This document shows, piece after piece, positions 29,273-45,843 of a DNA stretch of 48,413 nucleotides. Under the pieces are notes generated by a model. The model did not search any database and was not told the origin of the DNA. It was given only the letters and a program-made list of their open reading frames with translations. Origin of the DNA: Uliginosibacterium gangwonense (GTDB lineage Bacteria; Pseudomonadota; Gammaproteobacteria; Burkholderiales; Rhodocyclaceae); the NCBI GenBank assembly GCA_020723855.1, contig DYIB01000012.1, positions 1 to 48,413 on the forward strand, in the 5' to 3' direction. The translations under genes were made by a program, and so were the position numbers. The first letter of the stretch is position 1; each line of letters starts with the position of its first letter.

Positions 29273-30496
29273 ATGAACACCATGGGGCCGGCGCCCGCTC
29301 CGGTCCGCAGCGAGGAGGGGGACGTGCAGGACGCCGAGGAGCAGGGCGGCTACAAGCTGCAGGCCCTGCGCATCCTGTCCGAGGTGTCCGCCAAGCTCGC
29401 CTGCGAGCACAACCTGGAAGCCCTGCTGGAGCGCTTCCTCGACACCCTCATGCGCCTGTCCGGCGCCGCCGCCGGCGCCGTGCGCGTGCTCACCACCGAT
29501 GGCCGCCGCCTGCGCCTGCTCGGCGCCCTCGGGCTGCCCGACGATGTGTTGCTGGCCGAGCAGGAAACCGATCTCGACTGCGGCATCTGCGGCGTGGCGC
29601 TGCGCGAGGACGACGTGCGGCGCGCCTTCGAGCTGAAGACCTGCGCCGAACGCACCGGCCTGCCTTTCTTCCATAACTGTTCCGGCATGGTGGTGGTGCC
29701 CCTCAAATACCGCGGCAAGGTGCTGGGTGTCTACAACCTGTTCCTGCGCGAGCGGAGCGAGGTGCCCGAGGACCTGGCGCTGCTGTTCACCTCCATCAGC
29801 GAGCACTTGGGCATGGCCCTGGAGAATGCGCGCCTGATGCGCGAGAACCTGCGCATGACGCTCATCGACGAGCGCCAGATGATCGCCAACGAGGTGCACG
29901 ATTCCCTCGCCCAGACCATGGCCTACATGAAGATGCGCCTGTCCGCCATGCAGGAGGCCCTGCAGCAGGATGACAAGGCGCGCGCCCTCGCTTACGTGGC
30001 GGACGCCCAGCAGGCCCTGGACACCGCCTACGGCGACCTGCGCGAGCTGCTCGGCCAGTTCCGCCACCGCATGGACCCGCTCGGCCTGTTCCACGCCATC
30101 GATGCCCTGGCGCTGCAGTTGCGCGAGCGCACCGGCATCGAGCTGGAGCGGCGCAACGACATCCACGAGCTGGGCCTGTCGGTGGACCAGGAGGTGCAGG
30201 TGTTCCACATCCTGCAGGAGGCCCTGGCCAACGTGGCACGCCACTCGGGCGCGACGCGCGCGCGCCTGACCATGGAGACGGGCGCCGACGGCCACCGTTT
30301 CACCGTCGAGGACGACGGCAAGGGCTTCGTGGCGGCGGGGCACGCCATGCCGCGCCACCACTTCGGCCTGAGCATCATGCGCGAGCGGGCCGAGCGCGTG
30401 GGCGGGTGCATCGAGCTGGCCCGCTCGCCCCTGGGCGGCGCCCTGGTGCGCCTGGTCGTCCCCGTCCCGCCGAAGCCTGCTGCGAGGCGGCCGTGA
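29273..30496 (+). CDS. Soluble GAF-domain sensor histidine kinase, NarX/NreB-type HisKA_3 core
   Basis: N-terminal GAF-like region with Cys cluster (DCGICG...KTCAE...HNCSG), phosphoacceptor region DERQMIANEVHDSLAQTMAYMKMRL, HATPase VEDDGKGF; no TM segment. Confidence 0.88.
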   Translation: MNTMGPAPAPVRSEEGDVQDAEEQGGYKLQALRILSEVSAKLACEHNLEALLERFLDTLMRLSGAAAGAVRVLTTDGRRLRLLGALGLPDDVLLAEQETDLDCGICGVALREDDVRRAFELKTCAERTGLPFFHNCSGMVVVPLKYRGKVLGVYNLFLRERSEVPEDLALLFTSISEHLGMALENARLMRENLRMTLIDERQMIANEVHDSLAQTMAYMKMRLSAMQEALQQDDKARALAYVADAQQALDTAYGDLRELLGQFRHRMDPLGLFHAIDALALQLRERTGIELERRNDIHELGLSVDQEVQVFHILQEALANVARHSGATRARLTMETGADGHRFTVEDDGKGFVAAGHAMPRHHFGLSIMRERAERVGGCIELARSPLGGALVRLVVPVPPKPAARRP

Positions 30497-31155
30497 ATCC
30501 ACCCATCCGCATACTTCTTGCCGACGACCACACCCTGTTCCGCAAGGGCCTGGCGGAGCTGCTGGAAGGCCGCGCCGGCATCCGGGTGGCGGCCATCGCC
30601 GGCAACGCCGACGAGACCTTGCGGCTGGCCCTGGAGCACAATCCCGATGTCGCGCTCATCGACCTCAACATGCCGCCCCAGGGCGGACTCGAAGCCCTGC
30701 GCAGGCTGCGCGCCGAAGGCTGGAACGGCGCCGCGCTGATCCTCACCGTCAGCGACAGCGAAGACGACCTCGCCGGGGCGTTACGCAGCGGCGCCCGCGG
30801 CTACCTGCTCAAGGACATGGAGCCCGACGAAGTGGCCGACGCCGTACACCGCGCCGTGCGCGGCGAAGTGGTGGTGGCGCCGGCCATGACGCTCAAGCTC
30901 ATGCACCTGCTCCAGCCCGGGCGCGGCGAAGGAGCCAAGGCGAGCCCCCTGGCGCAGCTCACGGCGCGCGAGCGGGAGATCCTCGGCCATCTGTCCCAGG
31001 GCCTGTCCAACAAGGCCATCGCGCGCCAGCTCAACATCAGCCACGACACGGTGAAGCTGCACGTGCGCCACATCCTATCCAAGCTGAACCTCACCTCGCG
31101 GGTGGAGGCGGCGGTGTTCGCCGTGGCCCACAAGGAGGAGGGGGGCGGCAAGTAG
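30493..31155 (+). CDS. NarL/FixJ-family response regulator (GTG start)
   Basis: IRILLADDHTLFRKGLAELLEG receiver; LTAREREILGHLSQGLSNKAIARQLNISHDTVKLHVRHILSKLNLTSRVEA LuxR HTH; overlaps kinase stop. Confidence 0.93.
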   Translation: MNPPIRILLADDHTLFRKGLAELLEGRAGIRVAAIAGNADETLRLALEHNPDVALIDLNMPPQGGLEALRRLRAEGWNGAALILTVSDSEDDLAGALRSGARGYLLKDMEPDEVADAVHRAVRGEVVVAPAMTLKLMHLLQPGRGEGAKASPLAQLTAREREILGHLSQGLSNKAIARQLNISHDTVKLHVRHILSKLNLTSRVEAAVFAVAHKEEGGGK

Positions 31156-31158
31156 CGG

Positions 31159-32007
31159 CTACAGCACCGCGCTTTCCAGCGGGGCCGCGGCCCCGTAAGG
31201 CGGCGCGAAGGCATCGCAGAAGCCCGCAAGCTTGCGCCGCAGGCGCACCACCTCCCCCACGATGATCAGTGTCGGCGGGGCCAGCCTGGCATCGGCCGCC
31301 CGCTGCGGCAGGGTTCCCAGGGTTGCCGTCACCACCCGTTGGCGCGGTGTCGTGCCCTGCTGCACGATGGCCGCCGGCGTGGCTTCCGGCAGGCCATGGG
31401 CGGCCAGTTGACGGCACAGCTCGGGCAGGTGGTGCAGGCCCATGTAGATGACGATGGTCTGACCCGGGCGGGCGAGCGCCGGCCAGTCGAGATCGGCACT
31501 GCCGTCCTTGTGGTGGCCGGTGACCAGCACGCAGCTGTGGGCCCAGTCCCGGTGGGTGAGGGGGATGCCGGTGTAGGCCGCCACGCCCGCGGCGGCGGTG
31601 ATGCCGGGCACCACGGCGAAGGGCACGCCGGCCGCTGCCAGAGCTTCCGCTTCCTCGCCGCCGCGGCCGAAGATGTAGGGATCGCCGCCCTTCAGCCGCA
31701 CCACCTGCGTCCCCTGGCGCCCCAGCCGCACCAGCAGCCGGTTGATTTCTTCCTGGCCCAGGGCGTGGTGGCCGCGGCGCTTGCCGGCATAGATGCGCTG
31801 GGCTTCGGGCGGGGCCAGGGCGACGATCTCCGGCGCCACCAGCTGGTCGTAGACCACCACGTGCGCCTGCTGCAGCAGGCGGGCGGCGCGCAGGGTGAGC
31901 AGTTCCGGGTCGCCGGGACCGGCGCCCACCAGGGCGACAAATCCCCCGGCGCCTGCGGCGCCACCCCCTTTTTCAAAGGGGGTAGGGGGGCGTGATTGCA
32001 GCTTCAT
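31159..32007 (-). CDS. cobA: Uroporphyrinogen-III C-methyltransferase (SUMT, siroheme pathway)
   Basis: [74 protein letters not shown]. Confidence 0.95.
31963..31983. repeat. Palindromic repeat copy inside the CobA N-terminal coding region
   Basis: acccccttt-ttc-aaagggggt; translated as ...[17 protein letters not shown]... Confidence 0.75.
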
Positions 32008-33398
32008 AGGGTAGCGGCCAGCGCGCGCCGGCGCTCGCGGGCGCACTGGCGCACGAAGGCGACGAAGCGGGCGGTCCAGTCGTGGCCCACGGTGGAGCGC
32101 AGGTGGGTGTAGGAGGCCAGCACGTTGTGGTGGATGAGGCCGTCATGGCGGCCGTCGATGCCGTGGCCGCGCAGTACCCGGTAGGCGAAGCGCGGTTGCC
32201 CGTCCAGGTTCTCCAGGCTCGAGTAGTGGAACTCGTGGGCACGCACTTCCGCCCGCGTGGCCCCGGGCCAGGGATGCTCCGCCGTCTCCTGCAGGCGCAC
32301 CAGGCCACGGCCCACGGGCTTGTCGTGCATCACCGCGTCGCCGGCGATGGCGCCCACCATGGGGCGTGTGCGCCCTTGCCAGGTGAGGGAGCGGGTGAGA
32401 TACATGAGGCCGCCGCATTCGGCATAGACGGGCAGGCCCGCCTCCACGGCGCGGCGGATGTCGGCGCGCAGGCCGCGGTTGGCCTCCAGCTCATCCATGA
32501 AGCACTCGGGGAAGCCGCCGCCGATGAACAGACCGTCGCATTCCGGCAGGCGCTGGCGCAGGCTGTCGAAGAAGCGCAGCTCGGCGCCGGCGGCAGAGAG
32601 GAGCTCCAGGTCGTCCGGGTAGTAGAAGCCAAAGGCGGCGTCGCGGGGAATGGCGATGCGCACGGGTTTGCCCCTCACCCCGGCCCTCTCCCCGGTCGGC
32701 GGGCAGAGGGGAAGCGGCGCGGCCGTCAACTCCAGCAGGCGCGCCAGGTCGATGCGCTGGGCGACGATGCCGGCGATGGCGGCGATGCGGTCCTCGGCCA
32801 GGCGCGTCTCGTTGGCGGGCATCAGGCCCAGGTGGCGCTCCGTGATGATCATGCGCGGTTCGTCGGGGAGCATGCCCAGCACCGGCACGTCGGTGTAGCG
32901 CTCGATCACGGCGCGCAGCTTGGCCTCGTGGCGCGCGCCGCCGGTCTTGTTGAGGATCACGCCGGCGATGCGCAGCCCGCGCTCGAAGGCCTGGTAGCCC
33001 AGGATCAGCGGCGCCACGCCCCGGGTCATGCCCCGGGCATCGAGCACCAGGACCACCGGCAGGCCCAGCAGCCTGGCCAGCGCCGCGTTGCTGTCGGCGC
33101 CGTCCAGGGCCATGCCGTCGTGCAGGCCCTTGTTGCCTTCCACCAGGCACACGTCGGCGGCTGCGCCGTGGCGCGCGAACTGGGCGCGCAGCTCGTCGCC
33201 CGAGGACAGGTTGAAGTCCAGGTTGCGGCAGGGCCGGGCGGCGGCAGCGGACAGCCACAGGGGATCGATGTAATCCGGGCCTTTCTTGAAGGGCTGCACC
33301 GCCAGGCCGCGGGCGCGCAGCGCCGCCGCCAGGCCGATGCTGACCGTGGTCTTGCCCGAGGACTTGTGGGCGGCGGCGACCAGGAAGCGCGACGTCAT
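32004..33398 (-). CDS. dsrN: DsrN: CbiA/CobB-like glutamine amidotransferase (siroheme amidase)
   Basis: [24 protein letters not shown]-loop, [15 protein letters not shown] and [14 protein letters not shown] GATase; directly downstream of dsrP. Confidence 0.9.
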
Positions 33399-40034: not shown

Positions 40035-40367
40035 TCACACGCACCCCGTCGGCTTGGGCAGGCCGGCGATCTTGCACGCCTGCTTGGCCGGGCCGTAGGG
40101 GAACAGCTCGTACAGGTACTGACTGTTGCCCTTCTCCGGCCCCAGCTTCTTGCCGATGGCCTTGGTGAGCACGCGCACGGCCGGGGCGATCTGGAACTCG
40201 TTGTAGTAGTCGCGCAGGAAGTTCACCACCTCCCAGTGGTTGGGCGTCATCTCCACGTTTTCCTGCCTGGCGATGAAGTTCGCCACTTCCTCGCTCCAGT
40301 CGCCCAGATTGACCAGGTAGCCTTCCTCGTCGGTCTCGTAGGTCTTGCCGTTTACTTCTATTGCCAT
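40035..40367 (-). CDS. dsrC: DsrC, sulfur carrier/substrate protein (two C-terminal Cys)
   Basis: MAIEVNGKTYETDEEGYLVNLGDWSEEVANFIARQENVEMTPNHWEVVNFLRDYYNEF...ACKIAGLPKPTGCV; both conserved C-terminal cysteines present. Confidence 0.97.
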   Translation of the reverse strand: MAIEVNGKTYETDEEGYLVNLGDWSEEVANFIARQENVEMTPNHWEVVNFLRDYYNEFQIAPAVRVLTKAIGKKLGPEKGNSQYLYELFPYGPAKQACKIAGLPKPTGCV

Positions 40368-42541: not shown

Positions 42542-43834
42542 TCAGGCGGCGGACTTGGCCCTGATTCTCGCTACCTCCTCGTCCCAGCCGTCGGTGCGCA
42601 CATAGGGGTTGGTGCGCGGGGCGGAAACCATGTTCGGGTCTATTTCCAGTTCCACGCCTTCGAGGAAGTTCACCAGGCCGATGCGCTCGATCATCTCGCC
42701 GCAGCGCTCGTGCTCCAGGGCGTTCTCGGCGAAGAAATCCACGATGCGCTTGGCCAGATCCAGCAGCTTGTCGAAGTCCTCGTCGCTCTCCAGCTTCATG
42801 AAGGGCACCACCACCGTGCCCATGAGGTCGCCGATCTTCAGGGTGCGCTTGCCGCCCACCAGGATGGTGGCGCCGCGGTCCTTGCCCGGCGCCAGCGCCC
42901 CGGTCATGACGTTGATGCAGTGCATGCAGCGCACGCAGTCCTTGTTGTTGATCTCCAGGGCCTGGCTGTCATTGAGGGCCACGCTGCTCAGGTTCGGGCC
43001 GCTGCGTACATCCTTGATCTCCTTGAGCTGGATGGCCTTGGTGGGGCAGCGGTTCACCACGTCGTTCACCAGCTCGCTCAAGCCGTGCTTGGCGAACCAC
43101 TTCTTCGCCAGGGCCTCGTCCGTCTGCATGTTGTCGCGCCAAGTGCCGATGACGGCCATGTCGGAGCGCTGGATGGAGTTCATGCAGTCGTTGCCGCAGC
43201 CGGAGAACTTGAACTTGAACTTGTAGGGCAGGGCCGGGCGGTGGATGTCGTCCAGGAAGGCGTTGATGATCTTGCGATGGGCCTTGGCCTCGTCGTAACA
43301 GGACTGCTCGCAGCGGGCGTGGCCGACGCAGGACATGGAGGTGCGCACCGCCGGGCCGGCGCCGCCCAGGTCGAAGCCCAGGGCGTTGATCTCGTCGAAG
43401 GCCTTCTGCACGTTCTCCGTGGTGCAGCCCTGGAACATGATGTCGCCGCTCTGGCCGTGGAAGGCGATCAGCCCCGAGCCGTACTTCTCCCAGATGTCGC
43501 AGAACTTGCGCAGGATGTCGGTGGTGTAGTGCATGCCCGCGGGCGGCATGACGCGCAGGGTGTGGAACTCGGCGGCATCCTTGAACACTGGCTGGTCGTG
43601 CTCGTCCTTGATTTCCGTGAAGCGCGGGATGACGCCGCCGCCGTAGCCGAACACGCCCACGGTGCCGCCTTTCCAGTAGCCCTTGCGCGTCTGGTAGGAA
43701 TGCTCCAGGTGGCCCAGCAGATCCACCATGTAGTCCTTGTCCGCGGCGAGGCGCTTCAGGCCCGTGACGAAGCTGGGCCAGGGGCCGGCTTCCAACTGGT
43801 CGAGATTGGGCGTGTCGTGGGGCTTCTTGGCCAT
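42542..43834 (-). CDS. dsrA: Dissimilatory sulfite reductase alpha subunit
   Basis: KKPHDTPNLDQLEAGPWPSFVTGLKRLAADKDYMVDLLGHLEHSYQTRKGYWKGGTVGVFGYGGG; CVGHARCEQSC; FSGCGNDCMNSIQRSD. Confidence 0.98.
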   Translation of the reverse strand: MAKKPHDTPNLDQLEAGPWPSFVTGLKRLAADKDYMVDLLGHLEHSYQTRKGYWKGGTVGVFGYGGGVIPRFTEIKDEHDQPVFKDAAEFHTLRVMPPAGMHYTTDILRKFCDIWEKYGSGLIAFHGQSGDIMFQGCTTENVQKAFDEINALGFDLGGAGPAVRTSMSCVGHARCEQSCYDEAKAHRKIINAFLDDIHRPALPYKFKFKFSGCGNDCMNSIQRSDMAVIGTWRDNMQTDEALAKKWFAKHGLSELVNDVVNRCPTKAIQLKEIKDVRSGPNLSSVALNDSQALEINNKDCVRCMHCINVMTGALAPGKDRGATILVGGKRTLKIGDLMGTVVVPFMKLESDEDFDKLLDLAKRIVDFFAENALEHERCGEMIERIGLVNFLEGVELEIDPNMVSAPRTNPYVRTDGWDEEVARIRAKSAA

Positions 43835-44044
43835 GGGTGATGTCTCCGTGATTGGTCGGCCGCGTCCGGCGCGGGTCCGTTAGTTGCTGCTGATGCTACG
43901 CATGCTGCGCTGCGATCAGCCATCACCCGCGCAGGCTATCGCCGGCCCTCCGTGGGAGTAGGCGCCCCCTACCCGAAAGGGTTATGGGCTGCCACGCCAT
44001 GCCGGTGATAGGCGGAGCCGGTGGCGCCGTGCATATTGCCGCGC

Positions 44045-44293
44045 ATGAGCGTCGATCGCGACCCGGACGACAAGGAAGAGCTGGTCCGCCTGGACAAGTT
44101 CACGGCGCCCCTGTGGGGCCAGGACATCGAGCTGCTGCAGGTGGAGTACCGGTCGGGCGGCACGCCGCTGCTGCGCCTGCGCATCCGCGAGAAGAAGCGC
44201 TTCACCATCTTCGACATAGACGCCCAAACCGCCCGGCGCTGGGGCCAGGTCATGCTCGACTGGGCGCGGCGGCAGGAGAGCGGTGACGGGTGA
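44045..44293 (+). CDS. Small (82 aa) uncharacterised protein divergent from dsrA
   Basis: MSVDRDPDDKEELVRLDKFTAPLWGQDIELLQVEYRSGGTPLLRLRIREKKRFTIFDIDAQTARRWGQVMLDWARRQ; ATG chosen inside a longer ORF. Confidence 0.7.
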   Translation: MSVDRDPDDKEELVRLDKFTAPLWGQDIELLQVEYRSGGTPLLRLRIREKKRFTIFDIDAQTARRWGQVMLDWARRQESGDG

Positions 44294-44352: not shown

Positions 44353-44376
44353 TCCGTCACGATTCAAGGAGAAAAC

Positions 44377-44859
44377 ATGGCTAGCGACAAACCGACCGTC
44401 ACCCTGGACATGAGCGGCCTGTCGTGCCCGGCGCCGCTCCTGGGCGCCAAGAAGATCGTGGACGACATGCAGCCGGGCCAGACCATGCTGCTCGTCTCCG
44501 ACTGCCCCGGCACGTCGGACGACTTGTTCGCCTGGTCGCGCCACACCGGTAACGAAGTGACGGAGGTGCGCAAGATCGAAGGCAACCGCGTCGCCTACAC
44601 CATCCGCAAGGGCGGCGAAGCAGTGCGCCGCTCGGCCCACGCGGTGCTGGACATGCGCGGCGTCACCTGCCCCGGCCCCATCCTCGAAGCGAAGAAGCTG
44701 CTGGACGGCATGGCTGCCGGCGAGGTGCTGCTGCTCATCAGCAACTGTCCGGGCACGGCGGCGGACGTGGACGCCTGGGTGCGCGCCACGGCGCTCGAAC
44801 TCCTGTCGCGCGTGGCCATCGGGCCGAACGCTTATGAGTTCTACCTGCGCAAGAAATAG
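44377..44859 (+). CDS. Tandem TusA-TusA sulfur-carrier fusion protein
   Basis: Two TusA/SirA-like halves: LDMSGLSCPAPLLGAKKIVDDMQPGQTMLLVSDCPGT and LDMRGVTCPGPILEAKKLLDGMAAGEVLLLISNCPGT; both have CPxP. Confidence 0.92.
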   Translation: MASDKPTVTLDMSGLSCPAPLLGAKKIVDDMQPGQTMLLVSDCPGTSDDLFAWSRHTGNEVTEVRKIEGNRVAYTIRKGGEAVRRSAHAVLDMRGVTCPGPILEAKKLLDGMAAGEVLLLISNCPGTAADVDAWVRATALELLSRVAIGPNAYEFYLRKK

Positions 44860-44907: not shown

Positions 44908-45273
44908 ATGGGTGACGCCTATCGCGATACCGCCGCTCGCGTGGTGATGGTGAACGGCCGTGCCGTGCCCACCGATGCGGAAGGCTATCTCATCCATCCG
45001 GAGGACTGGTCCGAGGACTTCGCCCGGGCGCTGGCGCGCGAGGAGGGGCTCACGCTCACGGACGAGCACTGGCAGGTGATCCGCTTCATCCGCGACTATT
45101 ACCACGAACACCGGGTGCAGCCCCAGGTGCGGGTGATGATCAAGCACTTCGCCGCCCTGTGGGGGCCGGAGCGGGGCAACAACCACTACCTGCACGAGAT
45201 CTTCCCCCGCGGCGGCCCCCAGAAGCAGGGCAACCGGCTGGCGGGGGTGCTGCGCACCAAAGGGGAGCACTAG
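44908..45273 (+). CDS. DsrC/TusE-family protein lacking both C-terminal cysteines (RspA-like)
   Basis: VNGRAVPTDAEGYLIHPEDWSEDFARALAREEGLTLTDEHWQVIRFIRDYYHEHRVQPQVRVMIKHFAALWGPERGNNHYLHEIFPRGGPQKQGNRLAGVLRTKGEH; no Cys in the protein. Confidence 0.9.
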   Translation: MGDAYRDTAARVVMVNGRAVPTDAEGYLIHPEDWSEDFARALAREEGLTLTDEHWQVIRFIRDYYHEHRVQPQVRVMIKHFAALWGPERGNNHYLHEIFPRGGPQKQGNRLAGVLRTKGEH

Positions 45274-45276
45274 CTA

Positions 45277-45843
45277 ATGGCCGTGCGCATCCGCAGCCGC
45301 TTCCATGCGGCGCAGCGCAGCCGCACCGCCGCGGAGCTCGCCAGCGTCGTCGCGCAGCTCGCCTGGAAGCTGGCCCGGGAGTCGATCCGGCGCATGCGCG
45401 AAGCGCAGTTCGACATCGATCCCGGGCCTGCCTATTTCGATTTCGTGTGCGAAGCCCTGGCCTTCCACGCCTTGGTCGCCGACCGCATCGCCTACCGGCA
45501 ACTGGCGCCGGCGCGGCGCGCGGAATTCACCCGCGCTCTTGCCCTGCGCCTGGCGGACCTGGTCGAGGACAACGCCGACATGCTTCTGGCCGAGCCGGCG
45601 CCGGGCACGTGCCGGCGCCGCTTCCTGGAGCTGTTCAACACTGCCGGGGAAGAGTACGGCGCCTACGGCTACGGCGCCGACGGGCCGGATTTCGGTTTCC
45701 GCCGCTGCTTCGCCGCGCGCCTGGGCCGGGTGCTGCCGGCCAAGGACCGGCCCTGGGTGCATGACCAGGCGATGGAGATCGAAGCGCCGACAGCGGTCGC
45801 GGCCATCGAGAAGACCCTGGCGGGGTTGTTGGCGCAACGCTAG
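45277..45843 (+). CDS. Uncharacterised 188-aa helical protein downstream of the DsrC-like gene
   Basis: MAVRIRSRFHAAQRSRTAAELASVVAQLAWKLARESIRRMREAQFDIDPGPAYFDFVCEALAFHALVADRIAYRQL...; starts 3 nt after the upstream stop. Confidence 0.75.
   Translation: MAVRIRSRFHAAQRSRTAAELASVVAQLAWKLARESIRRMREAQFDIDPGPAYFDFVCEALAFHALVADRIAYRQLAPARRAEFTRALALRLADLVEDNADMLLAEPAPGTCRRRFLELFNTAGEEYGAYGYGADGPDFGFRRCFAARLGRVLPAKDRPWVHDQAMEIEAPTAVAAIEKTLAGLLAQR

Follow-up and report, generated by a model that had tools for sequence, protein, structure and literature searches.

A cysteine-less DsrC paralogue with an invariant C-terminal arm, encoded at dsr and nitrate-reduction loci, as a candidate accessory protein of sulfur oxidation

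The window, by which we mean the whole stretch of 48,413 nucleotides of Uliginosibacterium gangwonense DNA analysed here, carries a dsrABEFHCMKLJOPN-type operon, in which the canonical dsrC sits and in which DsrJ and DsrL were assigned by reading the open reading frames. Divergent from dsrA lies a unit consisting of a DUF6967 gene, a tandem TusA gene, a Cys-less gene of the DsrC family, hereafter called type C, and the gene of a 188-residue protein, p188. The original prediction that a canonical DsrC with both redox cysteines and a Cys-less paralogue stand beside one dsr operon is thus borne out. The features are as follows.

31159-32046, reverse strand: uroporphyrinogen-III C-methyltransferase gene of siroheme synthesis (TIGR01469, E 1e-94)
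32004-33398, reverse strand: dsrN, siroheme amidase family (CobB/CbiA-type domains)
40035-40367, reverse strand: canonical dsrC (PF04358, E 1.6e-48), tail CKIAGLPKPTGCV with both redox cysteines
42542-43834, reverse strand: dsrA, heading the divergent dsr operon (TIGR02064, E 9e-160)
44021-44293, forward strand: DUF6967 gene, heading the dsrA-divergent cluster (PF22295, E 2.3e-27), its position conserved in relatives
44371-44859, forward strand: tandem TusA-TusA sulfurtransferase gene upstream of type C (PF01206 in two stretches, E 4.7e-35), the order shared with relatives
44908-45273, forward strand: type C gene, Cys-less DsrC family, 121 residues (PF04358, TIGR03342, AlphaFold model)
45208-45270, forward strand: C-terminal arm of type C, residues 101-121 (by arm conservation and gapless alignment to DsrC)
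45232-45234, forward strand: codon of Asn109, the CysB site (by alignment to the DsrC tail)
45265-45267, forward strand: codon of Glu120, the CysA site (by the same alignment)
45277-45843, forward strand: p188, starting 3 bases past the type C stop, a conserved neighbour in dsr-linked clusters, with no Pfam or NCBIfam match

No DsrC homologue beyond the canonical dsrC and type C was found in the window genome, which is 84% complete. The tandem TusA protein has both Cys motifs (SCPAP and TCPGP) and is conserved in Rhodocyclaceae, and DUF6967 and p188 are conserved partners of the dsr-divergent cluster. Close to the contig end, 47106-48254 holds a transposase-like open reading frame.

The translated type C product contains no cysteine among its 121 residues and ends in the tail GGPQKQGNRLAGVLRTKGEH. 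It exceeds the curated cut-offs of both Pfam DsrC PF04358 (124 bits, E 3.3e-36, cut-off 24.9) and NCBIfam TIGR03342 (112 bits, cut-off 53.5), and its AlphaFold model, with a pLDDT of 90 and disorder limited to the first and last few residues, has the DsrC fold, A. vinosum DsrC (1yx3) being the best PDB match (Foldseek E 4e-9); it is therefore a member of the DsrC/TusE superfamily. The tail aligns to that of DsrC without gaps, with Asn109 in place of CysB and Glu120 in place of CysA, so the loss of both catalytic cysteines from a retained DsrC fold, as originally claimed, holds. In fact type C shares with DsrC the fold, the arm length, the motifs EGY, W, HW, R, FP and GP.KQ....AG and, in the window, the gene neighbourhood; however it retains only 22 of the 57 positions constrained in DsrC, its arm ends in RTKGEH where that of DsrC ends in PKPTGCV, and it has one extra Gly before the arm. 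It is thus not a canonical DsrC, which has CysA and CysB in the arm. Nor is it TusE of the 2-thiouridine sulfur relay, with which it has superfamily and fold in common (TIGR03342): TusE retains the last, penultimate-position cysteine, where type C has Glu120, and lies in a separate clade.

The loss of the cysteines could be read as the decay of a dsrC copy or as a sequencing artefact, and both had been named beforehand as what would undo the prediction. A scan of species genomes gave 419 candidate relatives, of which the best 80 were retained; every one of these best 80 of 419 has the same tail, and so do all 102 distinct relatives (102 of 102), which come from many assemblies. Among these 102 sequences the commonest residue averages 95% over the last 20 columns against 72% in the core, Asn109 and Glu120 occur in 100% and His121 in 99%, and in 72 aligned sequences 12 arm residues are invariant and 5 nearly invariant, with Lys106, Arg110, Lys118 and the C-terminal His among the conserved ones. 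The basic C-terminal tail, the conservation of which was to be checked, is therefore conserved and partly basic. Moreover the dN/dS of the window gene against its relatives is about 0.17-0.27 (the L046 pair, misaligned in the table, was left out of this range) and not near 1, and purifying selection acts on the type C gene. No Cys-bearing tail was found in the other reading frames at the locus. With the shared tail in many assemblies this rules out a sequencing error or frameshift, and with the conservation in 102 distinct sequences the dN/dS well below 1 rules out a decaying copy; for all that both catalytic cysteines are gone, we regard decay and artefact together as having practically no chance of being right.

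A maximum-likelihood tree was built from 180 DsrC-family members over 111 columns, its deep branches being uncertain because the columns are few. All type C proteins (102 rows), which share the arm pattern GGPQKQGNR.AG....KGEH, form one clade in it with a support of 94/100, and a second Cys-less paralogue, type D, forms a separate clade with 100/100; DsrC and TusE each stand apart from both. Type D (tail GKGGY, for example L015 7600-7938) lacks CysA and mostly CysB like type C, and like type C it adjoins TusA2 and p188 beside dsr; however its arm is different and it is absent from the window. In many dsr clusters of Rhodocyclaceae it lies ahead of type C, while in the window and in L044 TusA2 stands directly before type C without type D. 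A phylogeny of the family had originally been suggested as a check; in it type C is a clade separate from DsrC and TusE, the Cys-less proteins are not one clade, and judged by this tree "Cys-less DsrC" comprises at least two clades and is not a single family.

Some other members deserve a mention here. Proteins of type D beside dsr with the tail GPAKQAVKIAGLPKPFGKGGY occur in L003-L015, L077, L111-L114, L121, L134 and other loci, and CysB is retained in some of them. A DsrC-like group at L129, L130, L133 and L135-L139, away from dsr, has kept CysB and lost CysA (tail QACKIAGM.RPRGWSTG). The type C of L019, from a metagenome-assembled genome named Rhodospirillales, is nested within the Rhodocyclaceae clade, and probably either the genome is misbinned or the gene was transferred.

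The type C gene is not specific to dsr loci. In the locus survey, which covered 81 loci, namely the window and the best 80 of the 419 relatives, type C adjoins dsrN at the end of the dsr operon in 48, lies in the dsrA-divergent cluster in 16, and is not near the dsr genes sought in the remaining 17. In Burkholderiales the dsrN orthologue adjoins the type C gene or is fused to it, and in many relatives a homologue of the uroporphyrinogen-III C-methyltransferase comes after dsrN and type C. Of these 17 loci, five show type C behind narGHJI or the small cytochrome that goes with it. In another five it belongs to a nitrate-assimilation or nirB cluster, where its neighbours are a nitrate transporter, a PP2C-kinase, a formate/nitrite-type transporter or molybdopterin reductases. 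The type C gene often closes a narGHJI or nitrate-assimilation cluster, and at one locus it lies upstream of ubiU-ubiV, which serve anaerobic ubiquinone synthesis. Between dsr and nitrate genes the placement has switched at least three times on the type C tree. Weak "DsrO" matches near some loci proved to be NarH or DmsB-like proteins.

In seven Rhodoferax-like loci the frame of dsrN continues without a stop into type C, giving an in-frame fusion protein of about 590 residues. The fusion loci are as follows.

L034, 6597-8342
L054, 6576-8333
L057, L059, L064, L075 and L079

The fusions form a single clade in the tree, which suggests one fusion event that has since been kept. The AlphaFold model of the L054 fusion has a pLDDT of 92 and a pTM of 0.84, but since four fifths of the chain are DsrN, this is no proof of an interface between DsrN and type C. 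Apparent 600-residue open reading frames in L017, L021, L033 and L047 were rejected as fusions, being GC-rich open frames out of frame with dsrN.

The adjacency to dsrN in 48 of the 81 loci (the window and the best 80 of 419) and the seven fusions raise the possibility that type C is a maturation factor or carrier of siroheme or siroheme-amide working with DsrN, whose basic arm ending in Glu-His would hold or deliver the tetrapyrrole, or would keep the siroheme channel of apo-DsrAB, perhaps also of NirB, open. A siroheme-synthesis methyltransferase is indeed next in many of the dsrN-adjacent loci, the nas-type clusters contain NirB, a siroheme enzyme, and the conserved Lys106, Arg110, Lys118 and C-terminal His of the arm would suit such a task. 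However, nar operons without a siroheme enzyme hold type C in 7 of the genomes surveyed below; most dsr genomes, which generally carry DsrN and DsrAB all the same, are without type C; and the fusions, as a single clade, may go back to one event, with a model that does not settle whether the domains interact. On balance we consider this role rather unlikely.

In the DsrC literature the name RspA, "regulatory sulfur-related protein", is used for Cys-less members of the family, and the original prediction placed the paralogue with this putatively regulatory group. The label is plausible for type C as far as the cysteines go, since they are missing from the window protein and from the tail of every type C sequence, and the membership of the DsrC superfamily is shared; this likeness is to the general description of RspA, and the regulatory role is a putative one. 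As at least two Cys-less clades occur at these loci, "RspA" would not be one family. A literature search for sulfur-metabolism texts pairing DsrC with RspA found none and returned one unrelated paper.

Taken literally, the RspA idea would make type C a transcriptional regulator that binds dsr or nar promoters through the helix-turn-helix of the DsrC fold, reporting the status of sulfur or of the electron acceptor. Type C sits in dsr, nar and nas operons that could be under its control, there is one copy per genome in differing places as would fit a trans-acting factor, LysR genes adjoin it in two loci, and LexA-DNA entries appear in the Foldseek list, though at an E of about 3, which is not significant and for which the likeness to LexA was rejected. 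But the presumed DNA-recognition helix is, at its exposed positions (76, 79, 82 and 83), among the most variable parts of the protein, while the arm is invariant; type C is usually last in its operon rather than a divergent regulator gene; and in seven loci it is fused in frame to an enzyme. The variable helix face, the invariant arm and the DsrN fusions weaken the regulatory reading, which we hold to be unlikely, on a level with the siroheme role and less likely than an accessory role in the Dsr machinery. In DsrC the same helix surface is invariant, and its loss in type C argues both against sequence-specific DNA recognition by that helix and against a simple decoy copying the docking mode of DsrC.

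At the genome level, 369 Gammaproteobacteria genomes (GTDB class, drawn evenly) were surveyed, type C being called at an E of at most 1e-39, with a gap to the other DsrC-like proteins at 1e-33 and weaker. Twenty of the 369 have type C, and a dsrA match is present in 18 of these 20 against 101 of the 349 others (Fisher p 5.6e-8, kinship ignored). In one of the two exceptions, G279, the contig ends within the dsrA of a dsr operon (L200); the other, G246, is an 81% complete genome. Counting G279, 19 of the 20 type C genomes carry dsr. Conversely type C is present in only 19 of 120 dsr genomes, and it is therefore not essential to the pathway. In a phylum sample of 299 genomes, 3 have type C, the window genome included, and all of them belong to the window's own order. 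A viral origin as an auxiliary gene was considered too, phage DsrC proteins without one or both Cys motifs having been reported (PMC8190135), and was rejected, as a scan of the viral contigs of IMG/VR with type C as query gave no relative.

The association with nitrate reduction within dsr genomes is modest: narG or napA is found in 16 of 19 with type C and in 52 of 101 without it (p 0.011, kinship ignored). Nine of the 20 type C genomes have narG, and in 7 of these 9 type C stands directly after narI. It might accordingly be asked whether type C is primarily an accessory of nitrate reductase, in maturation or as a partner of Nar or Nas, with its dsr placement secondary; in several lineages it comes straight after narI, it also occurs in nas/nirB clusters, and at one locus it precedes ubiU-ubiV, all of which would agree with this. 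Against it, among the narG genomes without a dsrA match type C occurs in only 1 of 34, which is G279 with its contig-cut dsr operon; the majority of type C loci are in dsr operons; and the window genome (84% complete) has napA and nirB but no narG match. We therefore place this reading below the regulator and the siroheme factor, as an improbable one.

The reading that we prefer, with a probability of roughly 0.45, is that type C is a non-redox accessory protein, be it a modulator, an adaptor or an assembly factor, of the Dsr sulfur-oxidation machinery. In this view a protein of the DsrC fold has abandoned sulfur chemistry, while its flexible C-terminal arm was retained and fixed anew; bearing Asn and Glu at the Cys sites, the protein could form no persulfide, trisulfide or disulfide. 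The invariant arm would be the working part, which probably binds a protein or a cofactor; DsrAB, or some other component that binds DsrC, may be the partner in which it docks. That type C is nearly exclusive to dsr genomes suggests the Dsr machinery as its target, and its placement in nitrate operons indicates when it would be needed. Produced with the dsr or with the nitrate-reduction genes, it could adjust sulfur oxidation to how much nitrate is available as an electron acceptor.

A more specific form of this accessory role would have type C serve the siroheme channel of DsrAB as a non-redox plug or adaptor in nitrate-using sulfur oxidisers; it would be made with nitrate reductase or with dsr, and would keep nitrite or NO off the siroheme or hold DsrAB assembled but throttled. 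It is a long shot in such detail; if true, a catalytically dead paralogue would link two respiratory pathways.

The function of Cys-less DsrC paralogues has been hard to assign so far, and type C stands out as a well-defined clade whose arm is invariant, which is restricted to dsr genomes, alternates between dsr and nitrate loci and includes a natural DsrN fusion; each of these features gives concrete partners. The link with dsr genomes, the movement between loci and the DsrN fusion go beyond the original prediction. In a literature search from which subscription literature was largely absent, no paper was found to describe type C as a clade, its placement at dsr and nitrate loci, or the DsrN fusion, and priority is uncertain. 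If the coupling is real, it would tie sulfur oxidation directly to denitrification in bacteria of sediment, wastewater and groundwater.

Two further observations concern the surroundings of type C. In L065, L081, L181, L182, L189, L197 and L199, nirB adjoins an unusual molybdopterin reductase to which an FeS/DmsC-like membrane subunit is fused, and type C comes next. In the window, the far end of the dsr operon holds a GAF histidine kinase (29273-30496) and a LuxR-type response regulator (30406-31155); homologues of this kinase sit near dsr in Burkholderiales.
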